From Pseudomonadota bacterium (GTDB lineage Bacteria > Desulfobacterota > Anaeroferrophillalia > Anaeroferrophillales > Tharpellaceae): 32,437 bases of DNA. Every line of letters begins with the position of its first letter. Position 1 is the stretch's first letter. The notes beneath the pieces were generated by a model that worked only from the letters and a program-made list of their open reading frames with translations, had not been told where the DNA came from and ran no database searches. A program made the translations under genes and the position numbers. Positions 3,720 through 32,437 of this stretch are shown here, piece after piece. Where the stretch lies: positions 1 to 32,437 of the forward strand of contig DAOWHJ010000016.1 in the NCBI GenBank assembly GCA_030641485.1, written 5' to 3'.

Positions 3720-4997
3720 TTATCGACTTGCATCAAATAAATCTTCGCAAATTTCCTGAATCCGGCCAACAACCCTTTCTATCAAAAAGTCGTCGACTCC
3801 ACATTGATGCATAGTTTCCGGCATTTTGGCCAGGCGAAGTGCACATTTTTTCAGGGCTACCATGATTTTTTCAGGTTCGGTGACGTAGGGAGAGAGAGCC
3901 TCGGCAATTTTCCCCCACGACGGCCGCCCGATCACAGTTTCCAGTGCACCATCCCATCTTGTGGCCCGGGCAATTCCTTCGGGATCAAGAAACATTGGAG
4001 CAAAATCATAAAGAGGGGATAGCTCAATTTTTCCGTTTGGGTATTTTACTAAAGCTGTATTACGACCATGATTATCAGTATTTCGCAGTGCTACATTTAG
4101 TATGTCCCGCATTAGATATTCTAAAATTTCTTCATCAGGAAGAGTACAATATTTGGCTATTGCCTGGCAAAATGAGAGGTGTGAACCGTATCTTCCAAAT
4201 GAGCTCGAAGCCGTAGCTGAGGCCAAGGTTTCCAAGCCATATCTTGCAACTTGTCCCGTTTTGACAGAGCGGTCAAAACGAGAGATAAAAAGACTGTTGT
4301 CAATAAATTCTAGAGGTTCTCCGGTTCTTAGTCCAAAACTTCTGGCAACTTCATAGTAAGGAGCTTCGTTTTTTAGAATCAAGCGATCCGGGTTGGTTGT
4401 TCCTCTGGGGAATTTTATCAACCAGAACTTTTTTATCTTGCTATCTGGTAAGGCCCCATCAGCATGCCATTTCCCCTGGCAATCCTGATTTATGAGAAAC
4501 TTTGGCGCTTCACCTTGAACATCAGTGGCTCCAGCAACAAGAGCACCATTTCTTTCGGCATATTCAATGAAATCTTCGTGCCGATTGACAACATCACTCT
4601 TTGCAAAGCCAGGATGATCAACTGGAGAGCGTTCACTCGCTTCTTGAATACGTAGATTTCCAGGCGGATTGCCAGCTCCCTTGAGTAAAAGATGCCAATC
4701 AGCACTCTCGTTATCAAGCAAGCCCAGGCGCTTAACCCAGACCCTGCGTCCGGCCCCAGAAGGAAGTAAGTCAAGTAGAAAGGCTGGCCATGTTGATTCT
4801 CTATAGAGCTCAAAATTTACCGGATACCTAGACCCGACCTGACAATAAGGTCGGTCAATATAGCTAACCGCATAATCAATGTCGTAATCAAAACGACCGC
4901 TACCAGCAACGCCTAAATTTAATTGACCCTCATCCGGCTCAAAAAAACCAGCTTTTTGCCAATCTCCATCAAGAAAAATTTCGATCGTACATTTCAT
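3720..4997 (-). CDS. HipA-family Ser/Thr kinase, putative type II toxin
   Basis: 425 aa; FWLIKFPRG, LFISRFDR, catalytic-loop-like LRNTDNHGRN and metal-binding-like LSPLYDFAPM typical of HipA kinases. Confidence 0.87.
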   Translation of the reverse strand: MKCTIEIFLDGDWQKAGFFEPDEGQLNLGVAGSGRFDYDIDYAVSYIDRPYCQVGSRYPVNFELYRESTWPAFLLDLLPSGAGRRVWVKRLGLLDNESADWHLLLKGAGNPPGNLRIQEASERSPVDHPGFAKSDVVNRHEDFIEYAERNGALVAGATDVQGEAPKFLINQDCQGKWHADGALPDSKIKKFWLIKFPRGTTNPDRLILKNEAPYYEVARSFGLRTGEPLEFIDNSLFISRFDRSVKTGQVARYGLETLASATASSSFGRYGSHLSFCQAIAKYCTLPDEEILEYLMRDILNVALRNTDNHGRNTALVKYPNGKIELSPLYDFAPMFLDPEGIARATRWDGALETVIGRPSWGKIAEALSPYVTEPEKIMVALKKCALRLAKMPETMHQCGVDDFLIERVVGRIQEICEDLFDASR

Positions 4998-28433: not shown

Positions 28434-28958
28434 ATGAGTGAAAAGATAGAGACTGCGGAAAATATTGAAACAGTTGAAAGTGTGGAGAATCCTGACATCA
28501 CGGGAAAAGCCGGCAAAACAGTCCGGAATTATATGTGGTTCTCTATGGGCGCAGGGTTGATTCCGATCCCTTTTTTGGATCTTGCAGCCATCAGCGGACT
28601 CCAGCTAAAGATGATAGCGGATCTGTGCAAACAATACGAGACGCCATTTAAAGAGCAAAACGGTAAAGCAGTTATTGCGGCATTGCTCGGTTTTATTGTG
28701 CCGGAGTCCCTCTCCCGAGGGATTATGGGTTCCCTCTTAAAGGCGATACCAATTATCGGACCAATAACCGGCGGCCTCTCTATGTCACTATTTACCGGCG
28801 CGAGCACTTATGCCATTGGTAACCTCTTCATTCGCCATTTTGAGACGGGCGGCACCCTGCTTAATATGGATCCCCAAAAAATGCGCGAGCATTTTAAAGA
28901 AGATTTTGAAAGTGGCAAAAAAGTTGCCGAAGAGATTGGCGCTAAGTTAAAATCATAG
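28434..28958 (+). CDS. DUF697-like small membrane-associated protein
   Basis: SMGAGLIPIPFLDLAAISGLQLKMIADLCKQY...GFIVPESLSRGIMGSLLKAIPIIGPITGGLSMSLFTGASTYAIGNLFIRHFETGG; AAGGAG Shine-Dalgarno. Confidence 0.75.
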   Translation: MSEKIETAENIETVESVENPDITGKAGKTVRNYMWFSMGAGLIPIPFLDLAAISGLQLKMIADLCKQYETPFKEQNGKAVIAALLGFIVPESLSRGIMGSLLKAIPIIGPITGGLSMSLFTGASTYAIGNLFIRHFETGGTLLNMDPQKMREHFKEDFESGKKVAEEIGAKLKS

Positions 28959-29266: not shown

Positions 29267-29437
29267 GTGGAACTGTTTCTTCTCTACCTGATTTTGGCTA
29301 TTCTTAATGGATATATCGGCAGAAACCGTCTTATCGGTTTCTGGGGATTTTTTTTCATCTCAATGTTGCTAACCCCAATATTAACTTTGCTGTTCTTGAT
29401 ATTTTCTACCCCGCGTAATCCGGAGAAGGTAGCTTGA
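29267..29437 (+). CDS. Small hydrophobic membrane protein (56 aa), not in supplied ORF track
   Basis: GTG start: VELFLLYLILAILNGYIGRNRLIGFWGFFFISMLLTPILTLLFLIFSTPRNPEKVA*. Two predicted TM stretches; TGA overlaps the TTG start of the next gene (TTGA). Confidence 0.72.
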   Translation: MELFLLYLILAILNGYIGRNRLIGFWGFFFISMLLTPILTLLFLIFSTPRNPEKVA

Positions 29438-31113
29438 ACGATTTTCTGACACGCATTCCTCTAGTTGCATTTGTGCAACACTATTGCAAATTCCTTAATC
29501 GAAAATTTTTCCTGCTCAACCTGCTTTCAGGTCTGTCAAGCACCGCAATAGTTGCTCTGGTCAACAATACTGCGGCCAAAAAGAATGTCTCATCATTCGA
29601 CCTCTCCACTTTTCTAATCTTTGCCATTACCCTTGTCTGCTACATAGTGGCGACTAAAACCCTGATGAATATCACATTTGAGGTGACTGAAGACGCGGTT
29701 GACTCGGTACGTAAATCACTTTTTAGAAAATTACGCCTCTGTGACCTCGAATTTTTCGAGCAGAGAAATCGTGACACTATCTACGATCAGATAATGAAGT
29801 CAACGGCAACAATTGCTCAGACCGGTGCCTTCATTCTCGCTACCGGCCCGGAGCTGATCTTGATTGTCATGTTCTATATTTACATCTTTTTTCTCTCCAT
29901 AACCGCTTTCTTGATCGCCATCACCATGTTGATGGCGGCCTCCTTTTTCTTTATAAAAAAGACCAATGAGGTCGAAAAGTGTTTTCTCGAAGCGGCCAAC
30001 CATGACCAGCAGGTCAGCGGTTTTTTAAGTGGCCTCCTTTTCGGTTTTAAAGAGTGCCTGCTAAACAGCCGCCGAGATACGGATCTGGCCTCGGAGTTTT
30101 CCGCAAGTTCAACCGACCTTGCCGACAGCCGTATCTTGGCCGGGAAAAACTTCTCAAATATATACGCCTTTGTGCAAATGTTTTTCTATGTTTTGCTGGC
30201 GATTATTGTTTTTTTGATGCCGGTTTTAGGTTGGCATAATACGAATGACCAGATGATGACATTCAAACTGGTCTCAGCTATCTTCTTTGTCTTCATCCCA
30301 ACCGCAAATGTGGTCAGGATGATCAACTATAATACTCAGGTGAGTGTTGCGATTAAAGGAGTTAGAGAACTCGGAAATCTTATCGATGAGCGACTGCAGA
30401 AAAATAGCATTCAAGTTGATAGCACCAAAGATGAAATTTATAGCCCACCAGATTTTGCTTCGCTTGAACTTAAGGATATAGAGTACTCATACTATGATGC
30501 CGATCGCATGGCGACCTTCTCGGTCGGCCCGGTATCTTTTAAGCTGGACCAGGGTGATGTGGTCTTCATCTGCGGTCGTAACGGGAGCGGGAAAACTACC
30601 TTTCTGAAACTTCTGACCGGTTTGTACAAACCCCAAAAAGGGGAGATCAAGCAAAACCAAAGAACGGTTCCTTTCAATCACAATCAAATCTACCGAGAAA
30701 GTTTCGCCGCAGTTTTTTCAGATTTTCATCTCTTTCAAAAACTGCATGGTCTGCATGAAACCGACCCCGACAAAACCGCTGAACTCTTGACTCTCTTCCA
30801 ATTAGATTACAAAACCAAACGCACTGGAGATAGGTTCAGCAACCTTGATCTCTCCACCGGACAGAGAAAACGTCTGGCCCTGATTATCGCCTTGATGGAA
30901 GATAAGCCAATCTACATCTTTGACGAATGGGCCGCAGATCAAGATCCCCATTTTCGTGAATATTTCTATCTGGAACTGCTGCCACGCCTAAAACGAGAAG
31001 GCAAAACGGTTGTCGCAGTAACCCATGATGACCGATTTTTCGATAGTTGTGACCGCATACTCTGGTTTCAGGATGATGGCATAGTTGAAACCGAACCTAA
31101 TATTGAGCCGTAA
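29434..31113 (+). CDS. Cyclic-peptide-export-type ABC transporter, fused permease/ATPase (PvdE/SyrD/YojI-like)
   Basis: N-terminal multi-TM region; Walker A GRNGSGKTT; ESFAAVFSDFHLFQKL; signature LSTGQRKRLALIIALMEDKPIYIFDEWAADQDPHFREYFYLELLPRLKREGKTVVAVTHDDRFF. GGAGAAGG Shine-Dalgarno before TTG start. Confidence 0.9.
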   Translation: MNDFLTRIPLVAFVQHYCKFLNRKFFLLNLLSGLSSTAIVALVNNTAAKKNVSSFDLSTFLIFAITLVCYIVATKTLMNITFEVTEDAVDSVRKSLFRKLRLCDLEFFEQRNRDTIYDQIMKSTATIAQTGAFILATGPELILIVMFYIYIFFLSITAFLIAITMLMAASFFFIKKTNEVEKCFLEAANHDQQVSGFLSGLLFGFKECLLNSRRDTDLASEFSASSTDLADSRILAGKNFSNIYAFVQMFFYVLLAIIVFLMPVLGWHNTNDQMMTFKLVSAIFFVFIPTANVVRMINYNTQVSVAIKGVRELGNLIDERLQKNSIQVDSTKDEIYSPPDFASLELKDIEYSYYDADRMATFSVGPVSFKLDQGDVVFICGRNGSGKTTFLKLLTGLYKPQKGEIKQNQRTVPFNHNQIYRESFAAVFSDFHLFQKLHGLHETDPDKTAELLTLFQLDYKTKRTGDRFSNLDLSTGQRKRLALIIALMEDKPIYIFDEWAADQDPHFREYFYLELLPRLKREGKTVVAVTHDDRFFDSCDRILWFQDDGIVETEPNIEP

Positions 31114-31134
31114 AAAACAGTAGGTCAATAAATT

Positions 31135-31989
31135 ATGACGGATAAAGATAAACCGAAAAAACGGACCCGGCGCCGTACTGTAGACGACAACATCGTTTAC
31201 AAGGTACTGGGTTGTTTACTTATAGCAATGCTCCTGGTCGTAACTGTAAAGTACTCGATTATTACCATCCCCGCCGGACAATCAGGCGTATTATGGCAAC
31301 GCTTTTTCAAAGGTACCCGCCTCGACAGATTCTATGACGAAGGGCTCCATCTCATCTTTCCCTGGGATAAAATGCACATCTACAACTGCCGCCTCCAGAC
31401 CGTGAAAGAGAAAATCACGGCCTTAACAACCAAGGGACTGGCCATCGACATAGAGATCGCGATCTATTTCAGACTAGACAAAGATTATCTGCCCCAACTT
31501 CATAAAAATATCGGCCCTAACTATACAGAGATAATCGTCAGACCGATGACAACCGCCATTATTCGCAGTATCACCGGTCAGTTAACGGCCGAGGAGGTCT
31601 TCTCTTCGCAGAAGGAGTTTACCAACCGGCTTAATTTAGTTGCCAACATCGATTTTGCAGAAAATTTTATGACTCTTGAAAATGTTTACCTGGTGCAAAT
31701 TTCACTGCCTCCGGCCATTACTGAGGCTATCGAAAATAAACTTGTGGAAAAAGAGCGCATTGCCCGCATGACTTTTGCCGTGGAATCTGAAAAACAAGAG
31801 AAGATACGCAAAGAGGTCGAATCAACAGGGATTGCCATCTACAACCAGACGGTTGTAAAATCGCTATCGCCAGACATTCTAACCTGGCACGGAATTGAAG
31901 CAACCCGGAAAATGGCCTTGTCGGAAAACACAAAAACCATAATTGTTGGCAGCGGCAAAGAAGGGTTACCTATAATTTTGAACGAGTAG
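31135..31989 (+). CDS. SPFH/prohibitin (Band 7) family membrane protein
   Basis: Basic N-terminus and one TM helix, then IPAGQSGVLWQRFFKGTRLDRFYDEGLHLIFPWDKMHIYNCRLQTVKEKITALTTKGLAIDIEIAIYFRLDKDYLPQLHKNIGPNY...VRPMTTAIIRSITGQLTAEEVFSSQKEF. Confidence 0.9.
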   Translation: MTDKDKPKKRTRRRTVDDNIVYKVLGCLLIAMLLVVTVKYSIITIPAGQSGVLWQRFFKGTRLDRFYDEGLHLIFPWDKMHIYNCRLQTVKEKITALTTKGLAIDIEIAIYFRLDKDYLPQLHKNIGPNYTEIIVRPMTTAIIRSITGQLTAEEVFSSQKEFTNRLNLVANIDFAENFMTLENVYLVQISLPPAITEAIENKLVEKERIARMTFAVESEKQEKIRKEVESTGIAIYNQTVVKSLSPDILTWHGIEATRKMALSENTKTIIVGSGKEGLPIILNE

Positions 31990-32134
31990 ATGAAAACCGC
32001 CAATTTCCTCGATTGCGGCGTTAGGCTCAAATTTTAATCCTCAGAATACTTAAGTGTATGCTTGCGGTTAAAACCATCTCCTGCCTTGCACTCAAGAAAA
32101 TTGTCAGGTTTTCGGTCAGGTACTGGATGAGTTC

Positions 32135-32437
32135 GTGAAAAAATTTCTTCTAAAAATCGTCATTTTAGTCGTAGTTGCTATATTGGCAGCTTTTTTTCAC
32201 TACCGCCACTATGCTCTGGACGGAATGAAAAAGAGACGGCACAATTACCTGCTCAAGCCACAAAACAGCTCCGAGGTTCATGTCGGCGTAATATGGCCAC
32301 TAAAGCAGGAGTACCCAGGCTACCTTAAGGGTCTCAAGATGGCTTTGGCAGAGTTGCAAGAGAGCCAGGCCTTGCCCCATTTCAAAGTCCACTTTGCCCA
32401 TGAAGACGGTTCAAAGTCTGCAGCTTGGTCTTTTGCC
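32135..32437 (+). CDS. Membrane-anchored type-1 periplasmic-binding-protein-like protein, truncated by window end
   Basis: Open GTG frame to the window edge: VKKFLLKIVILVVVAILAAFFHYRHYALDGMKKRR...SSEVHVGVIWPLKQEYPGYLKGLKMALAELQESQALPHFKVHFAHEDGSKSAAWSFA. VGVIWP...GLKMALAEL...V..A.EDG resembles Leu/Ile/Val-binding-type receptors. Confidence 0.65.
   Translation, partial: MKKFLLKIVILVVVAILAAFFHYRHYALDGMKKRRHNYLLKPQNSSEVHVGVIWPLKQEYPGYLKGLKMALAELQESQALPHFKVHFAHEDGSKSAAWSFA

Follow-up and report, generated by a model that had tools for sequence, protein, structure and literature searches.

What do a peptide-type ABC exporter, a prohibitin-like SPFH protein and an anchored binding protein do side by side, and what do they act on? 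The question is raised by the end of contig DAOWHJ010000016.1 of a Pseudomonadota bacterium (assembly GCA_030641485.1; Desulfobacterota, Tharpellaceae in GTDB), whose 32,437 nucleotides are here called the window. Genes for these proteins follow one another on the forward strand, preceded by genes for a DUF697 protein and a 56-aa membrane protein. Comparison with homologous loci indicates, with high probability, that the locus is the membrane portion of a non-ribosomal peptide synthetase (NRPS) gene cluster, running DUF697, 56-aa protein, ABC exporter, SPFH protein and binding protein, with the NRPS downstream. The genes of the window locus are:

28434-28958, + strand: DUF697 (PF05128) membrane-associated protein gene, 174 aa, upstream of the other four
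29267-29437, + strand: gene for the 56-aa small membrane protein, GTG start
29434-31113, + strand: ABC exporter gene, 559 aa, TTG start, permease and ATPase on a single chain
31135-31989, + strand: SPFH protein gene, 284 aa, prohibitin-like, Band_7
32135-32437, + strand: 5' part of the gene for a membrane-anchored type-1 periplasmic binding protein, GTG start, first 101 aa, open at the contig end

A first-pass annotation of this DNA had described the last four genes as a putative operon. Their positions and common strand are confirmed, as are the TTGA overlap of the 56-aa and ABC genes (29434-29437), the 21 bp between the ABC and SPFH genes and the spacing of about 145 bp (exactly 145 bp) before the binding-protein gene, and an operon-like unit is supported. 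The four-gene list was right to take in the 56-aa protein, a conserved member, but was incomplete, as DUF697 belongs too. The contig (G000:C148) terminates at 32437, truncating the binding-protein gene.

What follows past the contig end is seen in homologous loci. One scan of species-representative genomes for the SPFH gene found four records, and an NRPS or NRPS-polyketide synthase (PKS) gene directly follows the binding-protein gene in the assemblies S015_14 (a metagenome-assembled genome of the same genus), SURF_34 and DeMMO2_4. The gene order ABC exporter, SPFH protein, binding protein, NRPS is common to L051, L052 (Deltaproteobacteria bacterium SURF_34) and L053 (S015_14, from the window's own genus); DUF697 and 56-aa genes lie upstream at L052 and L053, and the L051 contig begins within the ABC gene. 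The NRPS is the next gene at L051, L052 and L053/L055, as well as on another contig of the window's own assembly, C21 (L009). That contig, 3563 bp long, holds the end of a near-copy of the SPFH gene, a complete binding-protein gene (399 aa) and, 92 bp after the latter, an open reading frame (ORF) with condensation (C) and adenylation (A) domains, which are also present at L052 and L055. The same-genus NRPS is a hybrid of 4512 aa, with the order carrier, C, C, A, carrier, KS, an unassigned stretch, KR, DH, carrier, C, A, AT. At L054 (Rhodospirillaceae) the DUF697, ABC and SPFH genes adjoin, and all seven condensation-domain matches of the genome lie within about 10-28 kb. The absence of a visible NRPS in the window is an effect of the contig end: the remark in the first-pass annotation that none is visible holds for the window itself and fails for the locus type, in which one lies directly downstream. 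The question of the substrate, which that annotation had called unknown, is largely answered: with an NRPS directly downstream in homologous loci and near most other members, a non-ribosomal peptide or hybrid is the most likely cargo.

C21 is 84-90% identical to the window DNA; either the genome has two copies of the locus or C21 is a variant that comes from a related strain. Joining C148 with C21 as a single locus was discarded, because the overlap is just 84-90% identical and a repeat of the window (see below) is missing. Another contig of the assembly, C60 (L058), overlaps the end of C21 by 345 bp at 97.4% and continues an NRPS. This has an in-frame TAA in an adenylation domain (reverse complement 553-555) and no thioesterase in the part read; the copy may be degraded or mis-assembled. 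The same assembly contains a second NRPS-PKS-like cluster (G000:C116; L059, L060), with two large ABC proteins and, by eye, HlyD-like and TolC-like proteins. It lacks the SPFH, DUF697, binding-protein and 56-aa genes, and therefore not every NRPS in this organism uses the set.

For the SPFH gene type of the window, 35 loci (cassette loci; 602 kb) were compared with 14 loci of related SPFH proteins outside the cassette clade (223 kb of flank). DUF697 is found in 31 of the 35, the 56-aa protein in 28, the type-1 binding protein in 22 and the cyclic-peptide ABC exporter in 17; 21 have an NRPS, nine a thioesterase II (TE II) and nine a phosphopantetheinyl transferase (PPTase). At the thresholds used, none of these seven was found at the 14 control loci. 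Every cassette locus has one or more of DUF697, 56-aa protein, binding protein and exporter, L056 (a 3.9-kb contig) being counted through the 56-aa protein alone, and at two further cassette loci, L054 and L136, condensation domains lie just outside the fetched stretch. In a maximum-likelihood tree of 57 SPFH proteins, the 35 cassette members fall on one side of a branch with strong support (99/96); eight of the 22 controls in the tree (L177-L184) were examined within 1.5 kb only. Because cassette members served as seeds for the SPFH profile, the choice of loci is not independent of it, although the neighbours found are. SPFH score as the sole definition of the group was rejected: it works in the window's phylum, but the Bacteroidota sample has high-scoring SPFH proteins without the set, and membership was therefore taken from the tree. 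The joint occurrence of ABC, SPFH and binding-protein genes in distant genomes, on which the first-pass annotation had staked its reading beforehand, is thus borne out by the clade (99/96) and by the 35 versus 14 loci.

In the window's phylum, an SPFH protein of the high-scoring group is carried by 11 of 396 genomes and, in an independent family search that scored the three best candidates per genome, a TIGR01194 exporter by 10 of 346, all 10 being among the 11; in the eleventh (G026), a 79%-complete assembly, the SPFH gene is on a contig of 3.9 kb. The hypergeometric probability of this co-occurrence is about 2e-18, a value that ignores shared descent (five families) and overstates the surprise. 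In the complete genome G095, all six condensation domains are no more than about 25 kb away from the cassette, and in G095, G307, G400 and G012 all condensation domains are in one cluster with or near it. Strong SPFH matches occur in 17 of the 399 genomes of Pseudomonadota, with DUF697 and the binding protein in the neighbourhoods and, variously, an NRPS, cyclic-peptide ABC, thioesterase II or PPTase. The Bacteroidota sample (the 20 best of 89 genomes were inspected) includes genomes of 2.1-2.8 Mb with the SPFH, binding-protein, DUF697 and 56-aa genes divergent from the NRPS, and in some a PPTase. The gene set thus recurs in at least three bacterial phyla, with differing gene orders. In the genome G224, the binding protein is fused to a further solute-binding domain, SBP_bac_5, and encoded between the SPFH protein and another binding protein (L094), and exporters, a 56-aa-type protein and condensation domains are on a different contig (L190, L191).

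The window ABC protein as a whole scores 313.6 bits against TIGR01194 (cyc_pep_trnsptr; curated cut-off 286.2), has five hydrophobic segments within its N-terminal 300 aa in a simple scan, and carries GRNGSGKTT and LSTGQ...IYIFDEWAADQDP. As first annotated, it is by sequence a cyclic-peptide type exporter of the PvdE/SyrD/YojI subfamily; peptide export itself is predicted. Unlike NHLP/C39 bacteriocin exporters, it has no C39 peptidase domain in Pfam. The SPFH assignment was likewise correct (Band_7, 83.3 bits; cut-off 23.6). Profile comparison with solved proteins gave PHB2 (E 3e-29), HflC (E 6e-6) and stomatin (E 5e-4), and human prohibitins were also nearest in a fold search (E 6e-14); on these comparisons the protein is nearest to prohibitins among solved SPFH proteins. 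The protein has a single N-terminal transmembrane (TM) helix, and by the positive-inside rule 30 of the 35 cassette members are N-in, with the SPFH domain predicted to be periplasmic.

The DUF697 protein (Pfam DUF697, 31.2 bits; cut-off 27.7) has its gene in the equivalent place at L052, L054 and L055. It is strongly conserved across loci, and its structure model (predicted local distance difference test, pLDDT, 58) gives no usable fold. The 56-aa protein matches no Pfam or NCBIfam family; it has a conserved motif, G.IGRNR.IGFWG.FF.S..LTP, and is 75% identical to the window protein at L053/L055 and 55% at L052. That its ORF is a spurious call was discarded, as it recurs in 28 of the 35 cassette loci. 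The 101-aa piece of the binding protein alone matches no Pfam family, but is 80% identical over 101 aa to the C21 protein, which at full length is ANF_receptor/Peripla_BP_6, in agreement with the original call of an anchored type-1 binding protein. It has one N-terminal hydrophobic segment and belongs to a LivJ-like fold family, with the LivJ-type ligand positions Ser/Thr, Thr and Glu/Asp kept in close members, not in all.

Most of the gap between the SPFH and binding-protein genes is occupied by one further feature:

31992-32124, no strand: dispersed repeat of about 132 bp

It accounts for about 132 of the 145 bp, is missing from the C21 copy and enlarges this spacing in the window copy only. 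Its make-up is imperfectly palindromic, with ends like TAGTGC..GACCGAAAACC and apparently TA at the ends, and about five near-full-length and several shorter copies occur elsewhere in the assembly; it looks like a miniature inverted-repeat transposable element (MITE). Elsewhere in the window, a HipA-C kinase-like protein is encoded at 3720-4997 on the minus strand, possibly the toxin of a HipBA-type pair. A defence-system reading was discarded, a PADLOC scan having given nothing beyond generic ATPase matches.

Among known systems, the PvdE/SyrD/YojI exporters of the pyoverdine and syringomycin clusters share with the window protein their ABC subfamily and coding beside NRPS genes. We know of no dedicated SPFH, DUF697, 56-aa or anchored type-1 binding protein in such clusters. 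The PHB1/PHB2 and HflK/HflC cages resemble the window SPFH protein in sequence, fold and N-in single-TM layout; in contrast to them, the window type is tied to NRPS and exporter genes and forms its own clade, and no FtsH or m-AAA protease was recognised among the genes of the set. LivJ/LivK amino-acid binding proteins share the fold family and several ligand positions with the window-type binding protein, which differs in its N-terminal membrane anchor; Liv-type importer genes (LivHMGF) were not noticed in the gene maps of the set, in which not every neighbour was searched against family libraries. In the balhimycin system, too, an SPFH protein is physically close to an NRPS-product exporter, Tba, although it is of the paraslipin type and the host is an actinomycete. 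To our knowledge, the gene of this paraslipin is not within the balhimycin cluster. The proximity was found by labelling (PMC11960670). The barnesin (brn) NRPS-PKS cluster of Sulfurospirillum barnesii includes a three-gene cyclic-peptide transporter (PMC13096860). It shares its NRPS-PKS character with the same-genus cluster G012, which has KS, KR and DH; the module order differs between the two. A survey of prokaryotic SPFH operons mentions neither nonribosomal synthesis nor ABC transporters (PMC2636767).

The chances appear about even that the set as a whole is a membrane module for making and exporting NRPS products, working in the following way. The ABC exporter would flip the NRPS product from cytoplasm to periplasm, the role that PvdE is believed to have for acyl-ferribactin. 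The SPFH protein, for which a scaffold role is plausible, would build a dome like those of prohibitins and HflKC, enclosing the exporter or next to it on the periplasmic side, where the tethered binding protein would take up or retain the peptide. An inner-membrane anchor for this platform would come from DUF697 and the 56-aa protein, which may also link the cytoplasmic NRPS to the platform. In this way a local compartment for hand-over would arise, in which the product is concentrated and held away from the membrane before it goes on to maturation or outer-membrane export. Somewhat more tentatively, the dedicated prohibitin-like clade, DUF697, the tiny membrane protein and the tethered binding protein could constitute a periplasmic peptide export compartment occurring in several phyla, a purpose-built counterpart, encoded in the genome, of the membrane 'siderosomes' described for pyoverdine, of which PvdE exports the precursor ferribactin (PMC6206403).

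Several observations weigh against such a module. The window contig halts before any NRPS, and C21 is not its literal continuation. The SPFH structure model is modest (pLDDT 63), and dome formation therefore rests on homology. At three pseudomonadotal loci (L144, L145 and L147), the SPFH, DUF697, binding-protein and 56-aa set stands beside an ABC protein with a C39 peptidase, which replaces the cyclic-peptide exporter, and condensation domains are absent from two of the three genomes; the cargo is thus not always an NRPS product, and at these loci may be a ribosomal peptide. Several of the 2.1-2.8 Mb genomes have the SPFH protein, binding protein, DUF697 and NRPS but no adjacent cyclic-peptide exporter, so the exporter is not obligatory. 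Experimental work on any protein of the set was not found in the literature searched. Two of the three C39-type loci have a second ABC protein, and L144 encodes a fusion of the binding domain with thrombospondin-3 repeats and an OmpA domain.

The persistence of the set with different exporters, and in some genomes with no cyclic-peptide exporter, would also fit self-protection: the inner membrane would be stabilised by SPFH and DUF697, and product in the periplasm would be mopped up by the binding protein, letting the producer survive its own membrane-active peptide, export being separate. Published work links SPFH proteins to envelope-stress handling. However, an exporter is adjacent in 17 of the 35 loci, and genomes of the window's phylum have or lack exporter and SPFH protein together to an extent exceeding what protection needs, which leaves this explanation doubtful. 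Alternatively, SPFH and DUF697 might chiefly gather NRPS megaenzymes at the membrane from the cytoplasmic side, in the manner of a siderosome, with the binding protein secondary. DUF697 is near in 31 of the 35 loci and an NRPS in 21, and pyoverdine NRPSs are thought to be in membrane-associated complexes (PMC6206403); for 30 of 35 members, however, the positive-inside rule assigns the SPFH domain to the periplasm, away from the NRPS, and such a scaffold is unlikely.

The first-pass annotation had proposed that sensing is coupled to export. In its fuller form, the binding protein would detect an external peptide or amino acid and signal through SPFH and DUF697 to the exporter or NRPS. Sensor proteins do exist among type-1 binding folds and ligand-type residues are retained in close members, but among the sets examined there is no recurring kinase, cyclase, other signalling domain or regulator, and no signalling link from these parts is known; the data do not separate sensing from capture or chaperoning, and the proposal is not supported, being quite improbable. 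That the NRPS exporter is an ordinary neighbour of SPFH and transporter genes whose housekeeping roles are unrelated to it, without any shared function, is scarcely credible: SPFH, DUF697 and type-1 binding proteins all belong to common families, yet they co-occur in at least three phyla with differing gene orders and with a single SPFH clade, and partner genes are found at 0 of 14 controls. Chance neighbours were discarded on the co-presence of exporter and SPFH protein in the phylum, the clade support (99/96) and the locus counts (35 versus 14).

A membrane module for NRPS products thus remains the preferred explanation, and the combination of prohibitin-like SPFH protein, DUF697, 56-aa protein and anchored binding protein looks both undescribed and widespread. 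A search of full texts of open-licence papers, where absence is not proof, gave no description of a set combining SPFH or DUF697 with an NRPS. Even for pyoverdine it is an open question how NRPS megaenzymes, exporters and membrane are organised, and a widespread set that ties one prohibitin-like clade to peptide exporters is a concrete, deletable candidate for the organiser. DUF697 proteins and one bacterial prohibitin group also gain a likely context. The 56-aa, DUF697, SPFH and binding-protein set can serve as a genome-mining marker for NRPS clusters in fragmented metagenome bins, a use illustrated by the window, whose contig stops just short of the NRPS.
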